Source: Allopontixanthobacter sediminis
GTDB taxonomy: Bacteria; Pseudomonadota; Alphaproteobacteria; Sphingomonadales; Sphingomonadaceae
Direction: 5' to 3'
NCBI RefSeq assembly: GCF_009828115.1
Contig: NZ_WTYL01000002.1
Coordinates: 930,001 to 994,000 of the forward strand
DNA: 64,000 nucleotides
Positions 5,414-45,079 of the stretch are shown here, piece by piece; the stretch's first letter is position 1; each line of letters begins with the position of its first letter. The notes below the pieces were generated by a model that worked only from the letters and a program-made list of their open reading frames with translations, made no database searches and had not been told where the DNA came from. The translations under genes and the position numbers were made by a program.

Positions 5414-6436
5414 ATGACCGCTTATCCCAAGACTTCCGCCCTGATGCAGCGCGGAACCGACTTCCTCGGCAGCGAATTCGCGGTTCTGTGCGGCGCGATG
5501 AGCTGGGTTTCGGAGCGGAACCTGGTGTCCGCGATCAGCAACGCAGGCGGATTCGGCGTGATTGCCTGCGGGGCGATGACCCCGGACCTGCTCGACACGG
5601 AAATCGCCGAGACGAAGAAGCTCACCTCCAGGCCGTTCGGCGTGAACCTCATCACCATGCACCCGGCGCTGTTCGACCTGATCGACGTTTGCGCCCGGCA
5701 CGGGGTCACGCACGTGGTCCTGGCAGGCGGCATTCCGCCCAAGGGCAGTGTCGAGGCGATCAGGGCATTCGGGGCCAAGGTCATCGTTTTCGCGCCGACG
5801 CTGGCGCTCGCGAAGAAGCTGCTACGCCAGGATCGCGGAGCCGGCGGCGATGCGCTGGTGATCGAGGGCATGGAAGCCGGCGGCCATATCGGCCCGGTGT
5901 CGACCAGCGTGCTGGCACAGGAATTCCTGCCGGTGTTGGCGGAAGACCACTTGGTGTTCGTGGCCGGCGGGATTGGCCGCGGGGAAGCCATCGCCGGCTA
6001 TCTGGAGATGGGCGCAGTTGGCGTCCAGCTCGGTACCCGCTTTGCCTGCGCAACCGAAAGCATCGCGCATGAGAATTTCAAGAAAGCGTTCTTCCGCGCC
6101 AGCGCCCGCGACGCGGCTACCAGTGTGCAGGTCGACCCGCGGCTGCCGGTAATTCCGGTGCGTGCCCTCAAGAACAAGGGCACCGAGGAATTTACCGCCA
6201 AGCAGATCGAAGTGGCCAAGCTGCTCGACAGCGGCACCATCGAAATGACCGAAGCGCAGCTGCAGATCGAACAGTATTGGGCGGGCGCGCTGCGCCGGGC
6301 GGTGATCGACGGCGATATCGAGAACGGTTCGATCATGGCGGGCCAGTCGGTCGGCATGTTGAAGGAAGAAGAGCCAGTCGCGGACATCATGCAGCAACTG
6401 ATGTCGCAGAGCGAAGCGGCCCTGTCGCGCCGGTAA
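5414..6436 (+). CDS. Nitronate monooxygenase / 2-nitropropane dioxygenase family flavoprotein
   Basis: This 340-residue protein has the FMN-dependent TIM-barrel signature of the NMO/NPD family. It includes an N-terminal [23 protein letters not shown]-type segment, [10 protein letters not shown] near residue 152, and [10 protein letters not shown] followed by [11 protein letters not shown] near residues 183-210. Members oxidise alkyl nitronates; FabK enoyl-ACP reductases share the fold, so the exact reaction is uncertain. The stop codon lies one base before the purU start, so the two genes are probably co-transcribed. Confidence 0.85.
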
Positions 6437-24863: not shown

Positions 24864-25871
24864 CTAGTCATGGCCGCCAATCGCAGGCCCCGGTATGTAT
24901 GTCCGCTTCAAAGGCAAAAGCATTTGATAGCGCGGCTCGAACTGATGGTAATGTGAATAGATCAACTCGATCAGTATCGGTCCATCGATAAGGCGCAGAT
25001 TCGGTTTGGTGCGTTCAAAGGTGCGAGCATCAGGCGAAAAGCTCCCCAACGTAACGAACAATCCGTGTTCACCATTTTCGATCGCGCCATGAAGTTGCTG
25101 CACTTCAGGCCTGCCAATTGTTGTTAGAATTTGTTTGCACTGTACCTTGATAATAGGCGGCTCGAAGCCGAGTTCGTCACGGTGAGCGATAATGTCGATC
25201 CCCCCGTCACCGGAAGCTTGTGTGACGCGGCTGTGATAGCCCATGCATTTCAACAGATGTGCGACGAAATGCTCGAACTGATATGGCGTCTGATTAGCTT
25301 TTAGACGCTTGATAATGAAATCTTCGGTCGACTCTTCCACCTGCAGCGATACTTGCTCGGCACTGACTTCCTCGTCGATATCTTGGGCCTCGAACGCATC
25401 CCCCTCCATTGCTGCGAGAAATTCGTCCGCATGCGTAGTCACTTGGAACAGCGTGACGGCTGATCCAATCTCATTGAGCGCGCTTTGAGAAAAAGAGGCA
25501 CGAGGAACCGACGCGATCCATTTTACGGCGCGGCGGTTTGGGCATCTTACTGGGGCGTCGGGAACATATTGATAATCGCCCTCGATGATCCCGATATTGA
25601 CCATCCGATTTGGCTTAGAAGGAAATATGACGATATCGCCTACCTTCATTTCAAGCGCAAACCGATAGATGACACCCGCGTTAACCGGGATTGCACCCGG
25701 CTTTTTCTCTGGATAGGCCTCGGCAACTTTGGCTTTGAATGCATCCCTGTTAGGCGCGATCGACGATAGATCGCCAACTTTGTGCCAGCCAATCGCGATG
25801 TAGCCATTTTCTATTGGCCGCAAATCGTGATCGCGCGCCATATGGACGCCCCAAATCGTGGTATCTCTCAT
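24864..25871 (-). CDS. Mrr-like restriction endonuclease, last gene of the hsd operon
   Basis: In this 335-residue protein, residues 1-125 form a PUA/EVE-like reader-type region ([39 protein letters not shown]). The C-terminal half is an Mrr-type PD-(D/E)XK domain with [12 protein letters not shown] near 221 and VQCKQI near 242, carrying the catalytic Asp and the Q-x-K signature. Mrr enzymes cut methylated DNA. The start overlaps the hsdR stop by four bases (ATGA), so it is translated with the type I enzyme. A reader plus nuclease next to an hsd operon suggests a type IV activity added to the modification-based system; this is inference. Confidence 0.85.
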
Positions 25872-28800
25872 TTTCTGATCTCTCGAAGAAGAATTTCGGC
25901 TTGGGCCAAAACGGTCTGAACGGCCTCATCAGCTAGGTCAGGTGGATATCCATACTTCTTAAGTATACGCTTCACCAATACACGCATTCGAGCGCGAGCG
26001 CTTTCTCGCTGATGCCAATCTACGGTGACGTTGCTATTCAATTGCTCCAATAATTCGTGTGCGATCACGCGTAATTTTTCGTCTCCCATTGCCTCGACCG
26101 CGCTTTCGTTCTCGGCAAGGGCATCATAGAATGCAATTTCTTCCTGGCTTAATCCTCGAACCTCACCCCGCGCGCGTGCCGCCTGCATGTCCTTGGCGAG
26201 CGAAATAAGTTCTTGGATCATCTCAACAGCAGAAATTGCACCTGCGTGATAGCGCGCGACCGCCTCTTCCAGCCGATTTGAAAACGCACGGCTTTCGACC
26301 AAATTTGTCTTCGAACGGCTCACAATCTCGCCATTGAGCAATTTCTTCAGAGCTTCGAGTGCGAGATTTTTCTTATCCATCTTTTCGATCTCCATAAGGA
26401 ACTCGTCAGACAGGATCGAAATATCGGGCGATTGGATGCCAGCGACCTTGAGGATGTCGATTATTTCAGATGAGGCGACCGCCCGATCGATAAGCTGTTG
26501 CACAGCGAAGGAGCGATCCTTTTCGCTGATTTTTCCCGTCGCAGTGTTCTTGGCTAGCGAGGCTCGGATAGCCTGAAAGAAACCGACCTCATCTCGTATG
26601 GCTCGTGCCTCATCACTCGCAGAGGCAAGCGCGTAGGCTTTTGAGAGCTGTAGCACCATGTCGAGATAGCGACGGTGGGCCCGCTTTTTGTCTTCTTCAT
26701 TCTTTTGCTTTGCAGCTTCGGATTCCTGCCATTTTAACACCCAGTCGATTGCACCGCCTAGGCAAATTAGGCGTTCACGTGGCTGACCATCCACTCCTGG
26801 GCGGTAGTCAAAACCGTGGAGCAGATCGCGGATAGACTCATAGCGTTCCATCATCACTGCAACCGCTGCGGCTTCGTCGATACCTGTCTTATCGCGGTCC
26901 GATTCAGTGTATTGGCCAAGAGCGCTTCGTAGGTTCTGCGCAATGCCAATATAATCAACGACCAACCCTCCGGGCTTGTCCTTGAACACGCGGTTCACGC
27001 GTGCAATTGCCTGCATTAGACCGTGTCCACGCATAGGTTTGTCAATATACATGGTATTCATGCAAGGCGCGTCGAAGCCCGTTAGCCACATGTCGCAAAC
27101 GATAACTAGGCGCAGAGGATCGTCAGGATTTCGCGCTCGCTTGGCAAGATCGTCGCGTCGCTTCTTTGCACCAATGTGTTGTTGCCAATCCAGTGGATCA
27201 GAAGCCGCGCCGGTCATCACAATCTTGACCAAGCCTTCACTGTCTTCTGCAGAATGCCAATCCGGGCGCAGCTCAATGATCTTGTTATAGAGCGCAACAC
27301 ATATGCGGCGGCTCATGCACACGGCCATCGCCTTGCCGTTCAAAGCTTCGAAACGAGCTTCGAGATGCGTCACCATATCTGCCGCGACCTGTTCCAACCG
27401 CTTGTCAGAGCCGACAAGTGCTTCAACGGCGGACCATTTGGCCTTCATCTTTTCGGCTTCGGTCAAAGACTCATCTTCGATCAACGCCTCAATCTCCGCA
27501 TCGATCAGTGGTTTTTCGTCCTCATTAAGTTCGATACGTGCCAGACGGCTTTCATAGTAGATCGGCACCGTCGCACCATCTTCCACCGCGCGACTGATGT
27601 CGTAAACGTCTATGTATTCGCCAAAAATAGCCGGAGTGTTGATGTCCGCTGCTTCAATGGGTGTTCCGGTGAAGCCAATAAAAGATGCGTTGGGCATGGC
27701 CTGACGAATGTAGTGGGCATAGCCGTAACGCCGAATTCCGGTTTCCCGGTTTAACTTAGACTCAAAGCCATATTGACTTCTGTGAGCTTCGTCAGCGATG
27801 ACGATGATGTTGCGGCGATCAGATAAAAGCGGAAAGCTTTCCTCGCCGCGTTCGGGCGAGAACTTCTGCACTGTGGTGAACACGACACCGCCCGCTGCCT
27901 TGTCGAGAAGCTGCTTAAGGACGTAACGGCTATCCGCCTGTTCTGGGTTCTGACGGATAAGGTCACGACACAGACCGAAGGTTTCGAAGAGTTGATCGTC
28001 TAGGTCATTCCGGTCAGTTAGAACCACTATGGTGGGGTTCTCCATCACTTGCGATTTGACCGCAAGGCCCGCGAAGAACGCCATAAGGAGGCTCTTACCT
28101 GAACCTTGGGTATGCCAGATCACTCCGATCTTGCGGTCACCTTCTGGCCGCGTAGCATCTATCGCTTCTCTCAAGGCCTTCTTTGCCCCGTGGAACTGGT
28201 GATACCCCGCAACAATCTTGAACGGGCCATCGCCCTTGTCGCCAAAGACGATGAAATCGCGGATCAGTGCGAGTAGATTCTCTTTGGCAAAGACCCCAAG
28301 CAGGAGCGTTTCCAGTTCAGGCGTACCACGATGGGCGAAGTCTTCGCCATTGACAGTTCGCCAAGGCATGAATCGTTCCTGGTCAGCAGTGATCGATCCA
28401 ATGCGCGCTTCCATCCCATCGGATGTCACAAGTACGGCATTTGTGCTGAATAGGCTGGGGATTTGGTGCAAATAAGTCTGCAGTTGATTGTAGGCACCAG
28501 TTAGCGTCGCGTTCTGAGCTGCTGCGTTCTTCAGCTCCAACACTGCAAGGGGGAGTCCGTTGACGAACAAGACAATGTCCGGTCGGCGATTGGCCCGGTT
28601 CTCCACAACAGCAAACTGATTGACCGCGAGCCAATCATTGGCATCTGGGCGATCAAGATCGATGAGCCAAATCTTTGTTGAAGTAGCCTTGCCCGTTTCG
28701 TCTCGATATTCGACATCGACACCTTCGGTAAGCAACTTATGGATGCGCCGATTTTCTTCGACAAGTGAGGGAAGCTCGCCCGACAACACCCGTCGCAGGC

Positions 28801-29005
28801 CTTCATTCCGTGCCGGTTCGAGAGCATCGGGGTTGAGCTGGGCAATCGCCGACTCCAACCTCCCGATAAGAATTACATCGCCGAAGGATCGCCGCTCTGG
28901 CGCGACGCCATCGGGCGCGATCACGGAGCCGTGGAGATAGGACCAGCCAAGCTCTTGCAGGGTTTCCAACGCTGCCAATTCAACGATGTCCTCGTTGATG
29001 CTCAT
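25868..29005 (-). CDS. hsdR: Type I restriction enzyme R subunit
   Basis: The 1045-residue product is the motor and nuclease subunit. The N-terminal nuclease site is [21 protein letters not shown] near residues 138-160 (Asp and Glu-x-Lys). The SF2 translocase motifs include HTQGSGKS near 298, [24 protein letters not shown] near 405 and [10 protein letters not shown]-terminal helical region binds HsdM/HsdS. It overlaps the SIR2-like gene upstream and the Mrr-like gene downstream by four bases each. No frameshift or missing catalytic residue is visible. Confidence 0.97.
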
Positions 29006-30021
29006 GCAACACCTTCCAAAAGCGTGATAAGCAGTTGCTCGATCATTTGGTCATGAGCATCGGTCGGGTAATAGATTGGATGTATTCCCGCCTCAGCCAG
29101 AAACTCTCTGCGCTGCTGGCGGTCATTCTCCGGGAGTGGCAAAAAGGCATAATGGAGGGGTCTACCAACTGGTGCATTGGCGTGAAGATGTTTCAATGCC
29201 TCGACTGTGCGGTCGTCTGTCAAACTACACCCAAGAAAGAGAAGGCTCTTCGTTCCTGTTATCGCATTGATTACCTCAGCCAATGTCCTTTGCTCTGTAT
29301 AAGTAGCTGAATACTCTTGTGACGTCAGGACACGACCATGCGCAGTATCGGCTTCACCGTGGAGACGAAGCAAGCAATGCGGTTCATTGCCAATCCTGCC
29401 AGGAGCATCTCGCAGCGCTGCCCCCGAGAAGGTATTTGCGAACGGGATACCTGCAATGTGATATGCATGTGTAAGCACATAATCGAAATTCGTCGTAACT
29501 ACCTCTTGCCCAAAGATGCGAGGCAAGAGCTGAACCGGCCCGTCCACGCGCCTTTTGTGGGAACCAAGTTTCGCAAATACCTCCTCAGCTAGCACCACTG
29601 GACCGAGTATATCGTGCACTGCCTGAGCTGCTTCTTCGTATTGGGCCGCAACCAAAAACGCATCAATCTCCTGCACCCTGTCCGGCGCATCCGCCAACAG
29701 CGACTTAAGAAAGTCACCCCACAGCCTATGCCCACTGGCGCAAGACATTCCCGCGCCCACGAAAGGAATTACAGCACCTTGCTTGATACGGTGGATGAGT
29801 GCTTCTAAACGATCGCGACAGCCGTTTTCGTCTAAAAATTCCATTACTTGATCGCAGGCGTTCGCGCGTTCAGCAGCGACCCAATCAACCAGCAAGCCGT
29901 TAAAAATGTCTTGATCCATTTTGGCCAAGACTTCGGCACGAGACCAAACCTTCGTGCGAATCTCAATATCGCCTTCTTCGTTCAGTTCATCAATAAACCG
30001 CTGCCTGAAATACTCTTCCAT
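29002..30021 (-). CDS. SIR2-like domain protein inside the hsd operon
   Basis: The 339-residue protein has an N-terminal helical region of about 75 residues, then a SIR2-type Rossmann domain. The motifs are PFVGAGMS near 85 (NAD-binding), [12 protein letters not shown] near 175, LLRLHGE near 217 and [13 protein letters not shown] near 263. Bacterial SIR2-like proteins act as NAD-depleting effectors in Thoeris, DSR and related defence systems. The gene abuts hsdS with no gap and overlaps hsdR by four bases, so it is made with the type I complex. Acting as an abortive-infection backup is inference; a different NAD-dependent role is possible. Confidence 0.85.
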
Positions 30022-31386
30022 TCAAGCCCCCCCCACCTGAGGAGGGCTGACCTGCACCTCGCCAGACATTAGGCGTGGCAATAAATAGGCGCGGGTTTCG
30101 GCAAGGGTTCGATTTTCTTGTGCGGCACTCACGATCCTTGCGAATAATGGCTCGGCAATTTCGCCAAATGCGGAGATAAGCTTGGCACTGGAAGGAACTG
30201 CCGATGTGATCGGACGAAAGTTCTTTTTGCTAATTTCCTGAAAGGTGGAGCCGTTGGCATTGGCAGTTATCTTGTTCATGTTAGCTTTGCACCAACAATA
30301 CAGATAGGCGCTCCCAAACTCCTTATTAGGCAATAGGCCGATAAAGCCCTGATTGATCGCGACCGGAACTTGGGCAATCGCCAGATAGCCAATAGGGGCG
30401 CGGGAGGAGAGCAGCACCGCACCCACGGGAAGTAGCCCCGAAGTGATCTTGGCAAGGCCGGCGTCGCTAATCTGCCGTGATGTATCAAAGAGCGCGAGGT
30501 CATTCATACCCGACAAGTCCTTGGGGGTTGCCCAATGATGCAGTCCGGGGGACCAAAGGCTGTCATCACGCGTGCTGGGTGTTGTGCCTCCCACTGCTTT
30601 TATCAAATCGCCAATTTCGGTTTCAAGCCACCCCACCGGCAAGCCATCACTACCGAAAGACATAGGAAAGAGAGCTGCAAGTCCGGCGGCGCGTTGGCGG
30701 TCCGGGGTCAGCCCGGCCATAACTGCGGTTGGATCGGTTGTGCCCGCTTGAGCTCGGCGCACTGGACCAAAATCTACAAACCAATCTTGAAAAATTGCCA
30801 GCGCCATCCCCTCCAACGTCTCATTGATCCGCCGGTTGAGTTCAATTTGATCATCCAGGTCAGATAGAATTTCTGCTGTTTCGCGCTGTTTTCTAAGATT
30901 CTCGGGGAACTCAAACGAATGGGTTGTAGCAAACAGTGTGTATTGGAAACGGGCAACGCCGGTGTGCTGGATATGGAACGGGCGCAACGCGCCTGAATGG
31001 TATTCGGCTTGTAGTTTCCAAAACAAATAAGCAGGATCAACAGCAGATAGGTCAGGCCTAAGAAATCGCGCAAAGCTTGCACAGATGAGGGGTAACCTTG
31101 CTTGTCGAATAACCCGCTCGTTTATAAAAACAGTTCGGCCAGTTGGCTGATCTTTTGTGCCGCCCGCCGTTTCGATCAATAGATCATTGAGCTGTAGCGC
31201 TTTGCGTCCGGCTATATCCTCCCGTATGTATCGAATTGGCAACGTCGATAAATCACCATATCGAACTCGCTCAAAATCTGTTCCTCGAATTACCTGCATA
31301 GGCACGAAACCGGGACTAGGTTCGCCCAAACCCCATTCCCCATCGCGTGTAAAGCTTAGCAATTGTGAGAGTGTGTGCACTGGCAT
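30022..31386 (-). CDS. hsdS: Type I restriction enzyme specificity (S) subunit
   Basis: The 454-residue protein has two target-recognition halves. Each ends in the conserved helical spacer: TAEILSDLDDQIELNRRINETLEGMALAIFQDWF near 170-200 and ENRTLAETRAYLLPRLMSGEV at the end. It confers the bipartite DNA target on the M2S and R2M2S complexes. ATG 31386 overlaps the hsdM stop by one base (TGATG), and a TTG just upstream is less likely. The first half starts directly without the usual extra leader. The recognised sequence cannot be deduced. Confidence 0.93.
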   Translation of the reverse strand: MPVHTLSQLLSFTRDGEWGLGEPSPGFVPMQVIRGTDFERVRYGDLSTLPIRYIREDIAGRKALQLNDLLIETAGGTKDQPTGRTVFINERVIRQARLPLICASFARFLRPDLSAVDPAYLFWKLQAEYHSGALRPFHIQHTGVARFQYTLFATTHSFEFPENLRKQRETAEILSDLDDQIELNRRINETLEGMALAIFQDWFVDFGPVRRAQAGTTDPTAVMAGLTPDRQRAAGLAALFPMSFGSDGLPVGWLETEIGDLIKAVGGTTPSTRDDSLWSPGLHHWATPKDLSGMNDLALFDTSRQISDAGLAKITSGLLPVGAVLLSSRAPIGYLAIAQVPVAINQGFIGLLPNKEFGSAYLYCWCKANMNKITANANGSTFQEISKKNFRPITSAVPSSAKLISAFGEIAEPLFARIVSAAQENRTLAETRAYLLPRLMSGEVQVSPPQVGGA

Positions 31387-32972
31387 CAAGCAATCTTCGC
31401 CAATGTTTCAGAAATCTTGTTCTGTAGCGCGGCACTTTCTGCAAAATGCGATTCAAGGCGTTCAACAAGTCCCGCAAGCCGATCAGCAAACAATATGCCA
31501 TCATCTTCCGCCTCGATACCCTCGATGTAGCGCCCCGGTGTCAGGACATGGCCATGCTTGCGAACTTCTTCCAGCGTCGCTGACCGACAAAATCCCGGAA
31601 CGTCCTGATAATCGCCAAGGCCAGCCTCCGGCTTCGCCCGCCAGCGGTGATATGCGTCGGTGATCTTGGCAATGTCGTCTTCAGAAAACTCTCGCCTTGT
31701 ACGGTCCACCATGTAGCCTAGGTTTCGGGCGTCGATGAAAAGGAATTCCCCCTTGCGGTGACGGTGGCCATTGGCGCTCTTGTCGCGTGCCAAGAACCAC
31801 AGGCAGGCAGGAATCTGCGTAGAGTAGAATAGTTGGCCCGGCAGAGCGACCATGCAATCTACCACGTCCTTTTCGATCATGTCTTTACGGATGTCGCTCT
31901 CGCCCGATTGCTGCGACGACATAGAGCCATTGGCCAGCACCACGCCAGCAGTGCCGCGTGGAGCAAGATGATGGATGATATGCTGCAACCACGCGAAGTT
32001 GGCGTTGCCAGCCGGCGGCTGGCCAAATTGCCAGCGGACATCGCCTTCCAACTGCGGTTGCCACCATTCCGAGATATTGAACGGGGGGTTGGCCATCGCA
32101 TAATCGAATTTGAGTTGGGGGAATGCATCGTTGAGGAACGAGCCTTCATTGTTCCACTTGATATCTGCATCAATGCCCCGCACCGCTAGGTTCATCTTGC
32201 AGAGCTTCCAAGTCGTGTGATTGCGCTCCTGCCCGTAAATGGCAATATCGCTGCGGCGTCCTTGATGGCTTTCAATGAAGCGTTCGGACTGCACAAACAT
32301 GCCGCCGGACCCACAGCACGGATCGTAAACTCGACCATTATGCGGCTCCAGCATCTCAACGATGGTTTGAACGACCGATCTAGGCGTAAAGAACTCACCG
32401 CCGCGCCGCCCTTCAGCTCCTGCAAACTGGCTGATGAAATATTCATAGGCTCGGCCCAGCAAGTCGCGGGAGTTTTTGCCTGCGCCGTGCATCCCCACTG
32501 TCGAGAAAAGGTCAATCAATTCACCGAGCATTGTCTTGTCGAGTTGCGGGCGGCCATATTCCTTTGGCAGGACGTCCTTCAAAACTGACGCGTTGGCCCG
32601 CTCAATCGAATCCATTGCATTGTCGATTAGGCTGCCGATATCGCCTTCGCGCTCCTTTCCAGTATTTACGTCAACAAAGGTGATCTTCGGGCGTTTGGCA
32701 TTGGCCTGCAAATTATCCCACCGCGCCTCAGGCGGAACCCAAAACACATTAGCGGCCAGATATTCTTCTGCGTCCTCCGGGTCGGCATACTCCTCTTGCA
32801 GAAGCTTCTTGCGATGAAGCTCAAATGCCTCCGAGATATATTTGAGAAATATTAGACCCAGCGCGACATGTTTATACTCTGAGGGTTCAAGGTTGCCACG
32901 AAGCTTGTCTGCCGCCTTGAATAGCTCTGCCTCAAACTCAAGGTCACTGCCACTATTTCCCTGAGATGCCAT
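31386..32972 (-). CDS. hsdM: Type I restriction-modification DNA methyltransferase (M) subunit
   Basis: The 528-residue N6-adenine methyltransferase has the N-terminal HsdM helical domain (residues 8-130), the SAM-binding motif [10 protein letters not shown] near 219 and the catalytic ANPPFN near 294. It modifies adenines in the bipartite target defined by HsdS and protects host DNA. It is the first gene of the minus-strand operon hsdM-hsdS-SIR2-hsdR-mrr. The start is preceded by AGGGGAAG. About 200 bases upstream separate it from an IS3 remnant and should hold the promoter. Confidence 0.97.
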
Positions 32973-36928: not shown

Positions 36929-38011
36929 ATGAGCAAGGAAAAGCCCGCCAAAGTTTTGCCCTTCGACGAGGGCGTAATCTTCGGTCAGATGGCCGATAGC
37001 GCTTTCGACTTTCTCGACCAAGCCGCAGCCGATCTGGAGAAGAAGCCGAAATACGCCGTGATTCACTTTGCGACGGCGATCGAATTGATCCTAAAAGCCC
37101 GGCTATTGAAGGAGCATTGGGCCTTAGTCGTCACAACAAGCGGGGATGCCGACCGGCACGCCTTTCAGAACGGCAGCGCCAAAACCGTCACCGTGGATCA
37201 GGCTATAAAGCGGCTCGAGCAGATTGCCGATCAGCACCTGCCAGCGGGAGCACCGGAAGCCTTCAAAGCGATCAGCACCCACCGCAACCGCATGATCCAT
37301 TTCTTTCATGAGGCTACGTCACGCGAGGCCGAGGAAACGGCACGAGCCAAGGTGACCGCGGAGCTGTTGCTGGGCTGGTACTATTTGCTGCGCATGTTCC
37401 GCACTTGGGAATCCGATTTTGTCGAATACCGACCACGCATCCAGCGGGTCGAATGGTGTATGCGCCGCCTGCGCGAATATCTTCAGGTGGTATTTGATAA
37501 GCTTCAACCGCAGCTTGTCGAATTGGCTGCGAAGGGTGCGACATTCCACGGCTGCGCGAGTTGCGGCTTTCCGAGTGCCCGCGTCGTCTACATTGATGAC
37601 GTGATTGACGACCTGAGTTGTGGTGTCTGCGGCTTGACAGATACGCTTGTGACGATGCCCTGCCCGCAGGAGGATTGCCAAGGGACGCTGCGCCTGACCG
37701 GCTACAACAATGCGGGCGATGCCTGCGATACCTGTAACCAACAAATCGAACGCAAGCATCTGGTCGCATTTCTAGACACGGAACATGAAGAGTATTTCGA
37801 ACTCACGGTCAAGAATTGCGGCCTCTGCACCAGCCCTGGCAGCGTCGTACCGCACAACGAACTATACGTCTGCGCGAACTGCTTAGCCCATGCAGAGCAA
37901 ATCCCGTCCTGCGAATGGTGCAGTGAGATGCAGCTCGGTTACGATCTTGAGTTCAGCTATTACAAGGGATGTGAGTTTTGCGACGGTAAAGGCGGCTGGG
38001 ATGCGGATTGA
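36929..38011 (+). CDS. HEPN-like RNase domain with a large zinc-ribbon C terminus
   Basis: In this 360-residue protein, residues 20-130 resemble a HEPN domain: helical, with HFATAIELILKARLL and the canonical R-x4-H motif RNRMIH at 119-124, the RNase active-site signature. The C-terminal 150 residues contain eight Cys pairs or clusters (CASC, CGVC, CDTC, CGLC, CANC, CEWC, CEFC and others), several zinc ribbons probably binding nucleic acid or a partner. The next gene also has a HEPN-like R-x4-H motif and starts 17 bases later. A two-protein conflict system is a reasonable inference. Confidence 0.75.
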   Translation: MSKEKPAKVLPFDEGVIFGQMADSAFDFLDQAAADLEKKPKYAVIHFATAIELILKARLLKEHWALVVTTSGDADRHAFQNGSAKTVTVDQAIKRLEQIADQHLPAGAPEAFKAISTHRNRMIHFFHEATSREAEETARAKVTAELLLGWYYLLRMFRTWESDFVEYRPRIQRVEWCMRRLREYLQVVFDKLQPQLVELAAKGATFHGCASCGFPSARVVYIDDVIDDLSCGVCGLTDTLVTMPCPQEDCQGTLRLTGYNNAGDACDTCNQQIERKHLVAFLDTEHEEYFELTVKNCGLCTSPGSVVPHNELYVCANCLAHAEQIPSCEWCSEMQLGYDLEFSYYKGCEFCDGKGGWDAD

Positions 38012-38027
38012 AGGGTCGAGGTAAGCG

Positions 38028-39389
38028 GTGGCCTCTAAAGCGGAACTTGCCTCCCTCATCATTGATGAGCTTCTCTTAGGACAGCGACCCGATCGAGTTG
38101 CTGAGCCGTTCCGACCTGAAGGCCCCTTTGACACGTCACCGCAACTGCCCGCCGGGAACGGTCGCTGGCTACCGTTTTCGCGAACGGGGCAAAAGCACAT
38201 CGACGCCTTCGCCAAGGTCGTCGTCGACAATGACCCGCGCATCGCCAAGTCGTTTGGCAAAACCGACGTGGCAAAGATCGTTGGGCGCGCTTTCGGTGCG
38301 GCCTTTGCGGGCGTCGACAACGACCTTGAACGTTTCGTAATCGATGAGCAGGTTTTTGCTGCGGCCTGCGACGAGTTGGCTTCGGCACTCAGCCCGGCCC
38401 AGACAACCGAAGATCTGATATTAGGATGCTGGGCCCTGACTGGCGTGGGCACGGAGGATCTTCGGATCGGCCCGGTCAGGTTTGTTGATCGCCGCATTTG
38501 GCTCGCTGAGATGGCGGCTGGCGGCGGGTTGAGCGCGACAAGCGCCCGTCGTATCCGCGCGCGATGGGATGGCCGTAGTATCCGGCCCCGCAAGCCGACG
38601 TCCGACACCGTGTGGGAGCGTGGCACCATCGCTACCGTGGGTGATACCGATACGGTCTGTGTCGTCGTGACAGCGGGAATGGCACACAAGGTGGCCGAGC
38701 AGAAAGGGTTGCTGGCCGCGCGGATCGCGCTTACGACCTTGGCGCTACATTGGGAGACGCCATCAAAGGCGCTGGATCGCATGGGCCTTCTGCATGACGG
38801 GCCGCTCTATCGACGCGAGTCGATCATCTTTACGGGCGACGGCCTTGTCCGCACCTCCACGGACTCTTCGGGCATCAAGGGCCATTTCATCACCGATGAA
38901 TGGCGGGAGATGCGTAAAACCATCGATTGGCTCTGGGGGCCGGTTGGTCAGGCCCTAGCGGCGTACGTGCAACCGTCGCAGAGTCCGGTCCGGCCTACGG
39001 TCATGAACGCACTATTCGCCGCGCTTTGGTGGTTCCATGAAGCCAGTCGTGAACGCTCGCCGCTTATCGCGATTGTCAAATACTTCGCATGCCTCGACGC
39101 TTTGACGGGAGGAAACGAAGATGCAGGCGTTCGCGACCTCATCAAAGCCCGTCTTGGCTTTAACCCGGATGACCCGCTCACCGAGAACGGGAAGACCGTC
39201 AAGCAAGCTGTGCGGGAAATGTATAGGGCCCGAAGTTTGACTATTCACGGCACTAACAGCTTGCTCGGGTACGATTGGGTGGATTCACGCGGCCTTGCAG
39301 AGAGCATTGCGTCACACTGCCTTCGATCATGTTGCGATTGGATTCATAGCAACCCGACGACGGATGACCTAGCGGCCCTTAGGCGATAA
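38028..39389 (+). CDS. Large protein with C-terminal Apea/HEPN-like domain
   Basis: The GTG start at 38028 follows GAGG and gives 453 residues. The last 130 residues look like an Apea-like HEPN domain: FACLDALTGG, LIKARLGFNPDD and YRARSLTIHG near 400, whose R-x4-H (RSLTIH) is the active-site signature. The N-terminal 300 residues show no domain I recognise. It lies immediately downstream of the HEPN/zinc-ribbon gene and is probably in the same operon. Apea-type HEPN proteins are found in defence loci as RNase effectors; the trigger here is unknown. Confidence 0.75.
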   Translation: MASKAELASLIIDELLLGQRPDRVAEPFRPEGPFDTSPQLPAGNGRWLPFSRTGQKHIDAFAKVVVDNDPRIAKSFGKTDVAKIVGRAFGAAFAGVDNDLERFVIDEQVFAAACDELASALSPAQTTEDLILGCWALTGVGTEDLRIGPVRFVDRRIWLAEMAAGGGLSATSARRIRARWDGRSIRPRKPTSDTVWERGTIATVGDTDTVCVVVTAGMAHKVAEQKGLLAARIALTTLALHWETPSKALDRMGLLHDGPLYRRESIIFTGDGLVRTSTDSSGIKGHFITDEWREMRKTIDWLWGPVGQALAAYVQPSQSPVRPTVMNALFAALWWFHEASRERSPLIAIVKYFACLDALTGGNEDAGVRDLIKARLGFNPDDPLTENGKTVKQAVREMYRARSLTIHGTNSLLGYDWVDSRGLAESIASHCLRSCCDWIHSNPTTDDLAALRR

Positions 39390-39637
39390 GGTCGATCGCT
39401 ACTCCCCTGGATCGTGCGCCAATCGGGTGTCGCGCACGTTTTCGATCCACTTGCACCATGGCAAAAGTCGCGACATATCGCTCCGGAAGGCGAAAGTCTT
39501 GCTCTCTACGCCCTCCCGTCGCACATCGTCATGGCTACTGGATAGCAGCCATCCAAGCCGGTTCTCCGTGACAGCTATTGTGATCGCTGCCTCGACCCGC
39601 CCGTGGATCCGTTCTGGAACTCTCGAAATAAGTTGCC

Positions 39638-39675
39638 CACATTAATCTATGTGCTATGTCACATTAAACAATGTG
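39638..39675. promoter_or_regulatory. Two 16-bp inverted repeats, probable operators of the HTH gene
   Basis: CACATTAATCTATGTG (39638-39653) and CACATTAAACAATGTG (39660-39675) share CACATTAA and ATGTG arms, and their centres are 22 bases apart, two helical turns. They lie 15-53 bases before the ATG of the HTH protein, a placement typical of autoregulation in restriction-modification control genes. Confidence 0.72.
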
Positions 39676-39690
39676 GGGCACTGCTGGGCG

Positions 39691-39981
39691 ATGCCGTATG
39701 CGGATTTTCTGACCGAATTGACGCGTGCCGGCCTCACAGTGCGCGGCTTTGCTGACTTGGTCGGAATGAACCCAAACTCGATCACTAACTATGCGCGTCA
39801 GGGCGAGCTCCCGGTTCACTTGGCATTTATAGCGGTGCTCGTTGCCGAACTTGCCGTGCATCGCCTAGACTATCGGAATGCTATGGCCAAAGTTCCGTTG
39901 GCACCGAAGAAGCCGCGCGGGGGCGCCCGAAGAGGGCATTTTGGCGGCGATCGCCAGGCCAGCCTGGACCTGCCGTCTTGA
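39691..39981 (+). CDS. Small HTH regulator of the downstream methyltransferase/nuclease
   Basis: The 96-residue protein (start ATG 39691; a longer frame upstream would overlap the operators) has an HTH of XRE/Cro-like type (VRGFADLVGMNPNSITNYARQGELP, about 14-40) and a basic C-terminal tail. Twin palindromes just upstream suggest autoregulation like that of R-M control proteins. Its stop overlaps the methyltransferase TTG start by four bases, so one transcript carries regulator, methyltransferase and nuclease. Confidence 0.75.
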   Translation: MPYADFLTELTRAGLTVRGFADLVGMNPNSITNYARQGELPVHLAFIAVLVAELAVHRLDYRNAMAKVPLAPKKPRGGARRGHFGGDRQASLDLPS

Positions 39982-42900
39982 TCGACTGGCGCACCACAAT
40001 GGCGCGCTACGGCGGCGACGTTGCCAGTCTGCATTTGCTCGATGCCGACACGCCAGACCTATTGCCTTATGCAACCTTGGTAAATGCCCGGCGCCGCGGC
40101 AGCGATACGTTGGGGGTAGTCGGCGCAATATATGAGTGGCAGGAAGCGCCACTAATCTTTCTTGTCGAAGCCGATCTGGTAGCGAGCGACGAGCAATTGC
40201 AAAGCTTGCGGCGCCTGCTCGCGATGCGCGGAGATGCGCCCTATCTTGGGGTCGTCGCGCCGGGCCGGTTGGATGTCTATCTCATTGCCCTCGACAATAA
40301 GCGGCCGAGCCAGGTTCGGGTTCGTGAGGGTCTGGATACAATTGCTGACATCGATCTTTTGCCGCGTCTCGCTAACGTCCGGCCCAAGGCGGCGCGCACG
40401 CGGCAAAACTGGATTTCCGACGTCGTCTTGAAACTCTTAACGCAGGCAATCAAGGACCTGATTGCAGATGCCGATGTCGATGATGAAGATGCGATCTCGC
40501 TAGTGGGCCGCGCGCTGTTTACGCGGTTTCTTGGCGATCGCAATCTGCTGCCAGACGATATCGGATCGTTGCCAGCTTCCCACAGTCTCTTCGATGACGC
40601 GACGCGCGCAGAAGCAACTTCGGCATGGCTGGATCAGATATTCAACGGCGACTTGCTGCCGCTCAGCGAAGGCTTATTCGAAAGGCTGAACGAAAGCGCC
40701 TATCGTGTGCTCGGCGATATTATGCGCCGGGCTCCCGGTGGCCAACTTCAACTCGACTGGCAGGAAAGGTGGGATCGCCTAGACTTCGCTCATATTCCCG
40801 TCGGCGTGCTGAGCCAAGCTTACGAGCTGTACCTGCGCAGCCATCAATCTTCTCGCCAGCGGCGCGAGGGTGGGTTTTATACGCCCCGCCCGATCGCCGA
40901 TCTTCTGGTACGCGCATCGTTTCGGGCGTTAGATCGGGGCGGTGGCAGCGCGGAAGCGCGCATACTCGACCCGGCGGCTGGCGCCGGCGTTTTCCTGCTA
41001 ACCGCATTTCGCGAGTTGGTCGCCGCCCGCTGGCGCGTCTCCGGAAAGCGTCCCGACACCGCAAAACTGCGCGAGATTCTCTACAATCAGATCACTGGGT
41101 TCGATATCAATGAGGCAGCACTGCGCTTCGCGGCGCTAGGCCTCTACCTTTTGTCCATTGAACTCGATCCCGAACCTCAGCCGGTCGATAAGCTGCGCTT
41201 CGATGATCTGCGAGACGTGGTGCTGCATCGCCTCGGAGTGGTTGGCAAAAAAGGCCATCACCTCGGCAGCCTCGGTCCCGAGGTTGGGCCGGAGCACAGT
41301 GGTCGCTACGACATTGTTGTCGGGAACCCGCCCTGGGCCAGCGGCACCAAACTTCCAGATTGGTTGCTGGTACGTCACGAGGTTGCGCGTATCGCGTCGC
41401 GCAGGGCCGGCAAAGACATCGCGCCGCTGCTTCCCAATGAAGTTCTTGACCTACCCTTTTTGTGGCGGGCGATGGACTGGGCCAAGCCGGGCGGCCAGAT
41501 CGCCTTCGCGCTTCATGCCCGGCTGCTTTTTCAGCAGGGCGATGGCATGGCCGACGCCAGACTCGCACTCTTCCGTGCCCTCGATGTTACGTCCGTCATC
41601 AATGGCTCAGAGCTACGCCAGTCGAAGGTCTGGCCCGAAATAGATGCTCCCTTCTGCTTGCTGATTGCCACCAACCGTATTCCCGGTCCCGATGCGGGGT
41701 TCCGATTGATCAGCCCGCGTCTAGAAGCTTCGCTAAACTCGGCTGGCAGCATGCGGATTGACGCCCATGCCGCCGAAATCATCGCGACCGAAGATCTGGC
41801 GCGTACGCCCGAGTTGTTGAAGATTTTATTCCGTGGAACCAAGGCAGACCTGTCCTTGGTGGAGCGCATCCGCTCCAAGGGCTTCCCTACACTTGCGGAA
41901 TATTGGAGCGAGGTCGTCGGCGGCTCGCCCAAGGGCTATTTGACCGGATCAGGCAACGGATATCAAACGCTTAAAAAAAGCAGTCGCACGCGCAAGAACG
42001 GGGATGGCAAGCCGGGGGTTCCGGCTGACTATCTGCACGGTCTCCCCGATATCATGGCCAAGAGCCTCGATGACATCCTGGTTGATACGGGACGGCTTTT
42101 TGCTTTCCAGCACCGCCGCATCCACGACCCGCGGGATCAAGCAATCTTCGCAGGGCCACTGGTGCTGGTGCATCAGTCGCCGCCCGCAGGCAGAGTGAGA
42201 CTACGTGTTGGCGTGGCGGCCGAAACAGTTGCGTATAATGAGAGCTTTTATGGCTTCAGCACGGGTGCACTTGGCTCGGACCAAACACTGGTGCGATTTC
42301 TCGCTCTTTTGCTCGGTAGCCGCTTCGCTCTGTGGTTTGCCCTCGTCACGAGTGGCAAATTCGGGTTCGAGCGCGACGTCGTCGAAAAGGCCGCGCTCAA
42401 CCGCTTGCCTTTACCCGACTTGCGGTTGTTCAGCAAACTCCAGTCCACGGAAGTCTCTTCGCTGTTCGACGCCCTCGTTCGGGGCGACGCTTCCTGGTCA
42501 GATGTGGATCAATGGGCGGCAAACCTCTATGGCTTGGGCGCGTCCGATCTTCAGGTTATCGCCGATACGCTCACCTATAATGCGCCATTCAGTTCTGCAA
42601 AAAAAGCAGCGCAAGCGCCCCCACGGGATTTGGAAGGCTTTTGCACGCAGGTCGAACGCGAACTTTCGCCATGGGCAAAGCGGTTTGGCACAGTCGTCAA
42701 AGCAAAACCCATAAAGGCCCGCCCGCTTTCACCTTGGTGTGGAATAATAATTGAACGAAACGGCGGCGCTTGCGATGTCGACGTCCGAAAACATTGGGAC
42801 GGATTGATCCTTCTGGCCGACGCGAGCGCAGCTACCGAAATGGTGGTGCACGCCACTCCGAACACGCTGTTCGTCGCCCGGCTTGCCCAACAACGCTATT

Positions 42901-42983
42901 GGACTGCGACCCAAGCTCGACTTCTGGCCCAGCATATCGTCTGGAACGAACTTGAATTCCTCACGGGAAAAGGCGCCGAATGA
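39978..42983 (+). CDS. N6-adenine DNA methyltransferase, large PglX/Eco57I-like
   Basis: The 1001-residue protein has a SAM-binding motif DPAAGAGVFLLTAF near 329 and a catalytic NPPWASG near 449, identifying an N6-adenine methyltransferase of gamma-like order. The preceding HQSSRQRREGGFYTPRPIADLLV segment is typical of type IIG/PglX enzymes, and the C-terminal third is a probable target-recognition region. The N-terminal 150 residues have only a degenerate nuclease-like pattern. It starts at TTG 39978 or ATG 39999. It overlaps the nuclease gene by four bases. It is probably the modification part of a phage-defence R-M system; BREX-type PglX is the nearest relative but other BREX genes are absent. 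Confidence 0.85.
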   Translation: MIDWRTTMARYGGDVASLHLLDADTPDLLPYATLVNARRRGSDTLGVVGAIYEWQEAPLIFLVEADLVASDEQLQSLRRLLAMRGDAPYLGVVAPGRLDVYLIALDNKRPSQVRVREGLDTIADIDLLPRLANVRPKAARTRQNWISDVVLKLLTQAIKDLIADADVDDEDAISLVGRALFTRFLGDRNLLPDDIGSLPASHSLFDDATRAEATSAWLDQIFNGDLLPLSEGLFERLNESAYRVLGDIMRRAPGGQLQLDWQERWDRLDFAHIPVGVLSQAYELYLRSHQSSRQRREGGFYTPRPIADLLVRASFRALDRGGGSAEARILDPAAGAGVFLLTAFRELVAARWRVSGKRPDTAKLREILYNQITGFDINEAALRFAALGLYLLSIELDPEPQPVDKLRFDDLRDVVLHRLGVVGKKGHHLGSLGPEVGPEHSGRYDIVVGNPPWASGTKLPDWLLVRHEVARIASRRAGKDIAPLLPNEVLDLPFLWRAMDWAKPGGQIAFALHARLLFQQGDGMADARLALFRALDVTSVINGSELRQSKVWPEIDAPFCLLIATNRIPGPDAGFRLISPRLEASLNSAGSMRIDAHAAEIIATEDLARTPELLKILFRGTKADLSLVERIRSKGFPTLAEYWSEVVGGSPKGYLTGSGNGYQTLKKSSRTRKNGDGKPGVPADYLHGLPDIMAKSLDDILVDTGRLFAFQHRRIHDPRDQAIFAGPLVLVHQSPPAGRVRLRVGVAAETVAYNESFYGFSTGALGSDQTLVRFLALLLGSRFALWFALVTSGKFGFERDVVEKAALNRLPLPDLRLFSKLQSTEVSSLFDALVRGDASWSDVDQWAANLYGLGASDLQVIADTLTYNAPFSSAKKAAQAPPRDLEGFCTQVERELSPWAKRFGTVVKAKPIKARPLSPWCGIIIERNGGACDVDVRKHWDGLILLADASAATEMVVHATPNTLFVARLAQQRYWTATQARLLAQHIVWNELEFLTGKGAE

Positions 42984-43702
42984 GCGGGCCTGCCTCAACG
43001 CCACGCCCTGACCAAGTCGGCGAATTGACGCGTGGCCTGGACTTGCCGTTGCCTGCAATAGGTGGGCCAATAATGATGGTGCTCGCCGAAGCCATCGCTG
43101 CCGCATTTTCAGCGATCCGCATTGAATGGCCCCAAACGCTCGCTACCGGCAGCGAGCCCGAGGTCACCGCGCTCCTCGTCAGCCGGCTCAATGCGATGGC
43201 CGACGACAACACCGAGGAGTCTGGACTTTGGCGCAGCTTGGTTCGGTGCGTCGGACGAAGCGATGAATGCATCAGTTACGACGGCGCGCATCTGGAAAAG
43301 CAGCCGGACCTCTCGATCTGGCTCACGGACCGATCGGCACGATTTCCCCTTACGGCGGAAGCCAAGCTGCTGGATACGTCGAGCGGCAAAACCGAGACCT
43401 TATATTGCTCGCAAGGCGTACGCCGATTCCTCGTGGGGGAATACGGCTGGGGAGGACGCGAAGCGTTCATGCTGGGATATGTTCGCGATGGTTCAACCAT
43501 TCCCGCCAAGCTCGCACCTTATTTCGGACAGTCGAGCCATGCTGCGACCTACAATGTCGAGGTCGGGCCGATCGCAGTCGGCATGGGGGGCGATTCGAGC
43601 CGTTCGCAACATGGACGCAATTTCACCTTTAGCCATTTGTCACCGCCAGATAACGTTCCTGGTTCCATCGACCTATGGCATGTCTGGCTCCAAGCAAATT
43701 GA
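42980..43702 (+). CDS. PD-(D/E)XK-type restriction nuclease partner
   Basis: This 240-residue protein has a PD-(D/E)XK core: EKQPDLSIWL near 106-115 and LTAEAKLLD near 125-133 supply PD and E-x-K. It overlaps the methyltransferase by four bases (ATGA), so it is the likely nuclease of the pair. I do not recognise a closer family. The other domain positions and the cut specificity are unknown. Confidence 0.72.
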   Translation: MSGPASTPRPDQVGELTRGLDLPLPAIGGPIMMVLAEAIAAAFSAIRIEWPQTLATGSEPEVTALLVSRLNAMADDNTEESGLWRSLVRCVGRSDECISYDGAHLEKQPDLSIWLTDRSARFPLTAEAKLLDTSSGKTETLYCSQGVRRFLVGEYGWGGREAFMLGYVRDGSTIPAKLAPYFGQSSHAATYNVEVGPIAVGMGGDSSRSQHGRNFTFSHLSPPDNVPGSIDLWHVWLQAN

Positions 43703-43727: not shown

Positions 43728-44183
43728 TCAGAGCCTGCGTCTAAAGCCATTCTCAGAGCGCGTCCAAAGCGAGCGGTAGATCCGCTCAGCCATCGCAAGG
43801 TCCAGCACATGTTTGCCGTGCGGCTGCGATGTAACGAACTGCCCAATTTCCGTGGGCGTGAACGAGAAATTCTCGGGTAATTTCAGGCGGCGCTTGGCAA
43901 CGCCATCGGCTGCGTTGCACTGATCACAAAGGACTGTCGGGTTGAAGCGCGCGGTGCCGACGCCGTCCCAGCTGCGCGCATGGTCATGATGCTCGTGCAG
44001 CGCAGCCAGCCAGTCAAGAAACGGATGGTCCGAATTGGGAAAACGCTTCGTCCAGCGCAGAATCTGGAATTTCGATCGCCGGCAGCTTGGGCATATCCAA
44101 TCGGGGCCCACCCGCGCCCAGAGCTGGTGGCAATGCGCGCCCTTGAAGGCCGCGAACTCCTCTGCGGTCGGAACCTTGCGCAT
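43728..44183 (-). CDS. HNH-like protein downstream of the U49 protease
   Basis: The ATG at 44183 is favoured because GAGGAGGGCAAAG lies directly upstream; in-frame ATGs at 44210 and 44213 are alternatives. The 151-residue product has CPSC near residue 32, HEHHDHARS near 64 and CDQCNAADGVAKRRL near 84. Together these form a zinc-containing HNH-type nuclease fold. It follows the U49-like protease gene in the same direction with a 26-base gap, so both are probably expressed together. Confidence 0.7.
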   Translation of the reverse strand: MRKVPTAEEFAAFKGAHCHQLWARVGPDWICPSCRRSKFQILRWTKRFPNSDHPFLDWLAALHEHHDHARSWDGVGTARFNPTVLCDQCNAADGVAKRRLKLPENFSFTPTEIGQFVTSQPHGKHVLDLAMAERIYRSLWTRSENGFRRRL

Positions 44184-44209
44184 CTTTGCCCTCCTCACGC
44201 CCGCTCCCA

Positions 44210-45079
44210 TCATTCACTGCGTGAGTAAGCCATGAGCGAAGAGATAAATCCGTCGAGCGGATTCTCGTCCGCCGGATTCTCGCTAACTGGATCGAAATAC
44301 GCCTTTAGGGCGTAGCTGCTGATCTCAAACGCCAGAGAGTCGTCGCCGAGTTTTTCGAAATAATTGAATGCCTCGCCTAACCGTTGATTCGCCGGCGGAT
44401 GCGTGACTTTCGACCTGCGCACCTCGTCAATTAGGCCAATCCAGACAAAGGCGACGCAGATGGCCGCCGCCCGGAAATCGCGATGCTTATCGCTGGGCGG
44501 GCTTTTCAATATCCAGGCAATCGCCCACTCGTCTGCCTCCCGCTCCTGATCGTGGGACCGGCCGCTATAGGCTTGATGACCCATAACGAGATGGCCGATC
44601 TCATGCAGGACCACAAAGCTTACCGCCGCCAGGAACAAATTGTTTATCAGGCCGTCGAACGACGATCTCGATGCACCGGGGTCCGGATCAGGAAGTGCTT
44701 CGTCCCACGGCGCGTCAGGATTCCGAATGATCTCGAGCGCCGCTCGTTTGAGCTCCATAGCCATCCGACCTGCCGGCAATGTCATCAAGTCGAGCTGTTC
44801 GTAACCCGCCTCCCTCGCCATCCGGGCAGTCGAGAAGATCGCCCATACCGATGCAGCGACGGCCCACAGGCTCAGGAGCGCCGCATATGTTCCTTCGATG
44901 GTCTTGGAATTCGGCAGCGCCTCAAAGTTGGCCGATCCACTCGCGAAATCGAGCGGCCAGGTTTCGCCGCCCATTTCATCGACGAGTTCGATGGCGCGTT
45001 CAGGCGCGATACGGAATGGGCTCTCACGTATTTGCGAGAAAAAGCCGGTCGTCAGCCTTTCGGAATCACTCTGGGTCAC
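44210..45079 (-). CDS. Lit-like zinc metalloprotease (peptidase U49 family)
   Basis: The 289-residue protein has HEIGHLVMGH near residue 158 and a downstream EREADEWAIAWI near 178, giving HExxH plus a third Glu ligand in the order of Lit-type peptidases. E. coli Lit cleaves EF-Tu when a phage peptide is present and so blocks phage growth. Other zinc metalloproteases share this arrangement, so the substrate assignment is inference. The start is GTG 45079 because an in-frame stop lies just upstream. An HNH-like gene follows. Confidence 0.75.
   Translation of the reverse strand: MTQSDSERLTTGFFSQIRESPFRIAPERAIELVDEMGGETWPLDFASGSANFEALPNSKTIEGTYAALLSLWAVAASVWAIFSTARMAREAGYEQLDLMTLPAGRMAMELKRAALEIIRNPDAPWDEALPDPDPGASRSSFDGLINNLFLAAVSFVVLHEIGHLVMGHQAYSGRSHDQEREADEWAIAWILKSPPSDKHRDFRAAAICVAFVWIGLIDEVRRSKVTHPPANQRLGEAFNYFEKLGDDSLAFEISSYALKAYFDPVSENPADENPLDGFISSLMAYSRSE

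Follow-up and report, generated by a model that had tools for sequence, protein, structure and literature searches.

In Allopontixanthobacter sediminis, a three-gene operon preceded by two palindromes (positions 39638-43702) raises the question of how a small regulator, a large methyltransferase and a small nuclease could function together. Is this a relative of the BREX systems, a conventional type II restriction-modification (R-M) system, or an enzyme in which modification and cleavage have been separated? The window, i.e., the whole stretch of 64,000 nucleotides analysed here, corresponds to positions 930001-994000 of contig 2 in a 3.16-Mb genome whose close relatives belong to Sphingomonadales (e.g., Croceibacterium). 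The genes succeed each other in the order HTH regulator, N6-adenine methyltransferase (MTase) and small nuclease, and, as the preliminary description of the locus had stated, they overlap by four bases at each junction (TTGA at 39978-39981 and ATGA at 42980-42983). Their coordinates, with those of the upstream elements, are collected in Table 1.

Table 1. Features of the operon (positions in the window).
Feature	Position	Strand	Remarks
Putative operon promoter	39633..39660	+	TTGCCC 39633-39638, 16-bp spacer that O1 would fill, TATGTC 39655-39660
Operator O1, CACATTAATCTATGTG	39638..39653	.	Kept in 7 homologous operons
Operator O2, CACATTAAACAATGTG	39660..39675	.	22 bp from O1; spacing conserved; decayed in L001
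HTH (XRE/Cro-like) regulator, 96 aa, probable autorepressor	39691..39981	+	Weak HTH_31/HTH_17 matches (Pfam), conserved N-terminus
Type IIG-like gamma-class N6-adenine MTase, 1001 aa, TTG start	39978..42983	+	Pfam, PADLOC, AlphaFold, Foldseek
Predicted PD-(D/E)XK nuclease, uncatalogued family, 240 aa	42980..43702	+	Invariant residues, AlphaFold topology

The region around the cassette (18782-47578) is an apparent defence island which also encodes an SNase, a Schlafen-group-3 helicase, a MazF-like toxin, HEC-08, a Lit-like peptidase and a BovA-like CHAT protein. The island carries, moreover, a type I R-M operon (HsdR/S/M, 25868-32972) that encloses a SIR2-like gene, and an Mrr-type nuclease (PDC-S02) adjoins HsdR. 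At 36929-39389, the HEC-08/DUF3644 gene is followed, 16 bp on, by the gene of a 453-aa protein with no family above the cut-off and with relatives on Sinorhizobium plasmids; these two genes possibly constitute a two-gene defence system. On the other side (43728-45079, minus strand), convergent with the nuclease gene, a Lit/peptidase U49-like gene (44210-45079) overlaps by four bases the gene of a 161-aa Cys/His-rich HNH-like protein (43728-44213) that has relatives on 12 plasmids. A flanking module common with locus L008, where a 160-aa gene and a peptidase lie downstream, was considered and rejected, since these proteins are unrelated to those of the window.

Operators and control of the operon

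The two operators are 16-bp palindromes with centres 22 bp apart, as described earlier. Across the entire 3.16-Mb genome, their pattern, CACATNAANNNATGTG, is matched at exactly two positions, which are the two sites of the cassette, and the reversed-control pattern is found 0 times in the same genome. The motif occupies the same place in seven homologous operons, i.e., L001 (Croceibacterium xixiisoli), L007 and L008 (Agrobacterium and Allorhizobium plasmids), L017 (a viral-collection contig) and L049, L050 and L051 (three genomes of the same family). Two sites in the 22-bp register are present in L007, L049 and L050/L051, and the second site is weaker in L008. Three operators in 22-bp steps are seen in L017 (at about 5600-5720), where the regulator probably starts with GTG. 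In L001 (3640-3996), O1 is good, O2 is decayed and the HTH gene is frameshifted, with MTase and nuclease intact; this locus thus reads as a natural version of the cassette without its regulator.

A TT-rich hexamer abuts O1 in the window and in most relatives (TTGCCC, TTTACC, TTGCAC; TTKMCC-like), and the two operators have a TATG-like hexamer between them in the window and in most homologous loci. In the window, this putative promoter has 7/12 consensus matches, and a generic sigma-70 consensus scan of the region retrieved nothing. O1 would fill the -35/-10 spacer and O2 would cover the start region. Because the operators appear in this way to overlap the promoter, which is a repressor geometry, the HTH protein is most likely an autorepressor.

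The HTH gene does come directly after the palindromes, as previously noticed, but its listed start (39649) lies within O1, the first ATG of this open reading frame being part of the ATGTG half of the operator. In most homologues the N-terminus M-[PQL]-Y-[AT]-[DE]-F (M-x-Y-x-[DE]-F) is conserved, and it reads MPYADF in the window. Judging from this conservation, the true start is the ATG at 39691, and the operators are therefore non-coding.

The likeness to R-M control circuits that had been noted at the outset holds for the paired operators and the HTH gene, but the placement of the operators suggests repression, and not activation of the nuclease gene by an activator-type C-protein. In a classical C-protein circuit, the HTH protein would activate from one operator and repress from the other, delaying the nuclease, and a small HTH gene in first position with paired palindromes of A-rich centre, as in C.Csp231I, is what such a circuit would present. 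However, the putative -35 and -10 enclose O1, and O2 follows directly after the -10; MTase and nuclease are transcribed together, leaving the nuclease without a separate delay; and the frameshift in the L001 regulator has left MTase and nuclease open. We consider this circuit unlikely, and autorepression remains the reading that we favor.

The methyltransferase and its neighboring nuclease

The MTase had been called PglX/Eco57I-like. The Eco57I part of this description stands (Pfam, 1.1e-7, beside N6_Mtase at 4.3e-15), but homology to PglX is weak (PADLOC, 3.6e-7), and far below that to the best PADLOC model, the type IIG REase_MTase_IIG PDLC03623 (5e-30). This model aligns with other members of the MTase family along their entire length, at scores of up to 833 bits, and therefore describes the family of the cassette. 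As patterns, motif I (DPAAGAG at 331 in the window's protein) is present in 35/35 aligned members and motif IV (of the NPPY type, NPPW at 450) in 33/35, and the target-recognition domain (TRD) probably extends over about 600-870. With the AlphaFold model (pLDDT 75.8), Foldseek retrieves first the type IIG enzyme BpuSI (5.5e-18), and CamA, PglX, DrdV and MmeI among further near matches. By profile and predicted fold, the MTase is nearest to type IIG enzymes.

What defines a type IIG enzyme is an N-terminal cleavage domain (PMC3874165). Among 14 type IIG-like relatives at greater distance, 12 possess a D...[AVI]-E-[LF]-K site near the N-terminus; in the MTase family of the cassette, a D...ExK expression is matched in 3/35 members, in a non-conserved segment. 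The chain thus lacks a conserved N-terminal D...ExK nuclease site. Residues 1-116 retain an alpha-beta-beta-alpha-beta-beta arrangement and could be a decayed nuclease domain. Phage records gave no match to the MTase, and single-family scans of viral contigs with divergent MTases found nothing. In L010 (4574-7737) and L041 (4870-7903), the MTase gene is in two ORFs and the nuclease is still open; these are possibly decaying copies or sequencing frameshifts.

The nuclease downstream carries five residues invariant in 35/35 aligned members (D110, E127, K129, Y142 and H234) and two conserved in 33/35 (E59 and H211), the motif of the window being Q-PD110...(A)E127-A-K129. In its AlphaFold model (mean pLDDT 82.7), a helix and a strand are followed by a strand starting right after D110, a strand with E127-x-K129, a helix and a strand, so that D110 stands at the start of strand 2 and E127/K129 in strand 3. 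Signature and modelled core topology both place the protein in the PD-(D/E)XK superfamily, as first proposed, with a predicted nuclease activity. The part after about residue 150 is more variable. Single-sequence, family-member and profile searches gave no match in Pfam, PADLOC, NCBIfam, PHROGs or PDB; Foldseek found no confident relative among solved structures (the best, the type IIS enzyme PaqCI, has an E-value of 0.25) and weak matches only in the viral set. The nuclease family is new to the libraries and open-access papers searched. With the window's own genome included each time, it was found in 4/399 genomes at the level of the order, 9/385 at that of the class and 7/398 at that of the phylum, and it is also present on plasmids of Rhizobiaceae, Bradyrhizobium, Roseibium, Sphingobium, Pseudomonas and Burkholderia.

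A reduced BREX relative, in which a PglX-like MTase would work with a substitute effector nuclease without DNA degradation, would account for the PglX folds among the structural matches and for the weak PglX profile matches. Nevertheless, neither PglZ (PF08665) nor BrxC/D (PF10923) has a match in the whole genome, in agreement with the earlier remark that no other BREX gene is present, and BREX membership was rejected on this ground; moreover, type IIG models score far higher, and the nuclease is conserved as a predicted catalytic PD-(D/E)XK protein. We judge this relationship extremely improbable, and the proposed position of the cassette "between type II and BREX" is not supported, the MTase being nearest to type IIG by both sequence and fold.

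Linkage of the pair and choice of the target

When the nuclease is taken first, the MTase is directly upstream in 18/18 distinct genomes. When the MTase is taken first, the nuclease is present in 27/29 loci (i.e., 17/17 plasmid loci and 10/12 viral-collection contigs with room for it), the loci without it being L019 and L055. Pairwise distances of the two proteins are correlated (Mantel r 0.95; maximum 0.19 in 2000 shuffles), and the linkage is near-obligate over 16-75% identity. The family search that had been called for therefore finds a recurrent pair, which none of the searched libraries contains in this form; with the twin operators, this recurrence supports the minimal self-regulated MTase and nuclease cassette first put forward. 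The pair, carried by plasmids and defence islands in many Proteobacteria, is probably a self-regulated R-M system.

The regulator is XRE-like in the window's group and MerR-like elsewhere: L044 matches MerR_1 at 2e-5, and those of L012, L014, L020 and L043 are similar to it by eye (L012, which was tested, has no Pfam match). It is RHH-like in L015, L016, L042 and L047 (Antitox_RHH at 0.0055 for the latter). With three kinds of regulators upstream of one pair, the control gene thus changes while MTase and nuclease persist together. Before MerR-like and RHH-like regulators, the search for twin palindromes revealed no common motif, only scattered inverted repeats.

Both proteins show 88% identity between the loci L044 and L045. 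Their MTases share about 95% identity, but 38% over roughly 100 residues near 620-720, and the first 150 residues of their nucleases stay 90-98% identical. If the recognition stretch can change in this way under a nuclease that stays mostly the same, it is probably the MTase that provides the nuclease with its target, a lead that comes mainly from this one pair.

Could the nuclease, on the contrary, read the target itself, the large MTase only methylating the same sequence, as in an ordinary type II system? The MTase and nuclease genes are adjacent and the nuclease signature is present, type II systems normally have M and R as distinct genes, and the variable C-terminal part of the nuclease could read DNA. 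The replaced recognition stretch of L044/L045, facing a nearly unchanged nuclease, and a linkage so tight over such divergence, which suggests dependence, both speak against this explanation, which we hold to be possible but rather doubtful. The many plasmid copies could also evoke an addiction module or, with a non-protective MTase, a modification-dependent (type IV-like) nuclease. However, self-methylation combined with a methyl-dependent nuclease would be self-destructive, and addiction, a known side effect of R-M systems, is no alternative to them; we regard both as very unlikely.

We consider it probable that the locus is an autoregulated "split type IIG" R-M cassette with a separate nuclease guided by the MTase: an MTase that has lost the fused site, accompanied by a nuclease encoded on its own, suggests that the type IIG architecture has been split. 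The HTH protein would bind the two palindromes over its own promoter and keep the operon low. In a new host, the operators would be unoccupied, and the MTase, whose translation precedes that of the nuclease on the same mRNA, would methylate the host adenine sites. The small nuclease, whose translation would be coupled to that of the MTase, would then cut DNA without the mark, probably acting in complex with the MTase and receiving its target from the TRD. Guidance by the MTase would also account for the sharing of one transcript by M and R in the absence of a delay circuit. The cassette, which sits in a defence island, would play an anti-phage role. Several points weigh against this model: PDB and Foldseek provide the nuclease with no confident solved relative; the promoter is weak by consensus; the guidance of the nuclease relies mainly on one locus pair, and L019 and L055 are without nuclease; and the single transcript leaves the nuclease undelayed unless it depends on the MTase. 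More tentatively, the cassette may represent a whole split type IIG class, in which an MTase-TRD chain would have lost its own nuclease and recruited a docking PD-(D/E)XK subunit, specificity would change by TRD swap alone, and XRE-, MerR- and RHH-type repressors would be exchanged.

The PADLOC models PDLC03623 and PDLC03603 ("REase_MTase_IIG") match MTases without a fused nuclease site and with a separate nuclease downstream, and an annotation made with them would wrongly suggest a single-chain type IIG enzyme. For the MTase family labelled in this way, cutting most likely sits in the neighboring "hypothetical protein" of ~240 aa. Naming the nuclease family would correct the defence annotation of many alphaproteobacterial plasmids (Agrobacterium, Rhizobium, Roseibium and others), as well as that of about 1-2% of the sampled proteobacterial genomes. 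In plant-associated bacteria, such restriction, when carried by plasmids, could influence transformation and conjugation. The cassette also offers a test of the delegation of cleavage to a separate subunit by a type I/IIG-like enzyme, and of control-gene swapping among R-M operons.

Comparison with known systems

No cassette combining such an MTase with a separate nuclease was found in the open-access literature searched; the MTase may already stand in REBASE as a putative type IIG enzyme. Type IIG enzymes (Eco57I, BpuSI, MmeI, DrdV; PDLC03623/PDLC03603) are likewise gamma-class N6A MTases with a TRD, of about 1000 aa. They carry their cleavage domain in the chain, whereas the MTase of the cassette, without D...ExK, is followed by a nuclease of another family. 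With BREX PglX and MADS Mad2, the MTase shares a general homology; PADLOC MADS matches are weak (mad1 0.005, mad2 1e-17), and the operon has three genes.

C-protein type II systems (C.AhdI, C.Esp1396I, C.Csp231I, Kpn2I) possess, like the cassette, a small HTH gene and paired palindromic operators. They differ from it in operator sequence, the sites of the cassette deviating from the canonical form GACTtatAGTC (PMC3115060), and in that the cassette is a single M-R operon, with sites apparently overlapping the promoter and a regulator class that is not conserved across the family. C.Csp231I has paired operators with A-rich centres (CTAAGN5CTTAG, PMC3115060), but neither this protein nor this site is that of the cassette. 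In the RptR type I R-M islands, the operon's promoter is repressed by the product of its first gene, via palindromes overlapping the -10 (PMC12255303). This logic of autorepression is like the one proposed here, although RptR islands involve 6-bp TAGCTA direct repeats, a different protein and type I R-M. Finally, in "type 1 1/2" systems such as AhdI, a type I-like MTase is served by a separate endonuclease, as we propose for the cassette; in AhdI, M and S are distinct subunits (PMC3874165), whereas in the cassette M and TRD form one chain.
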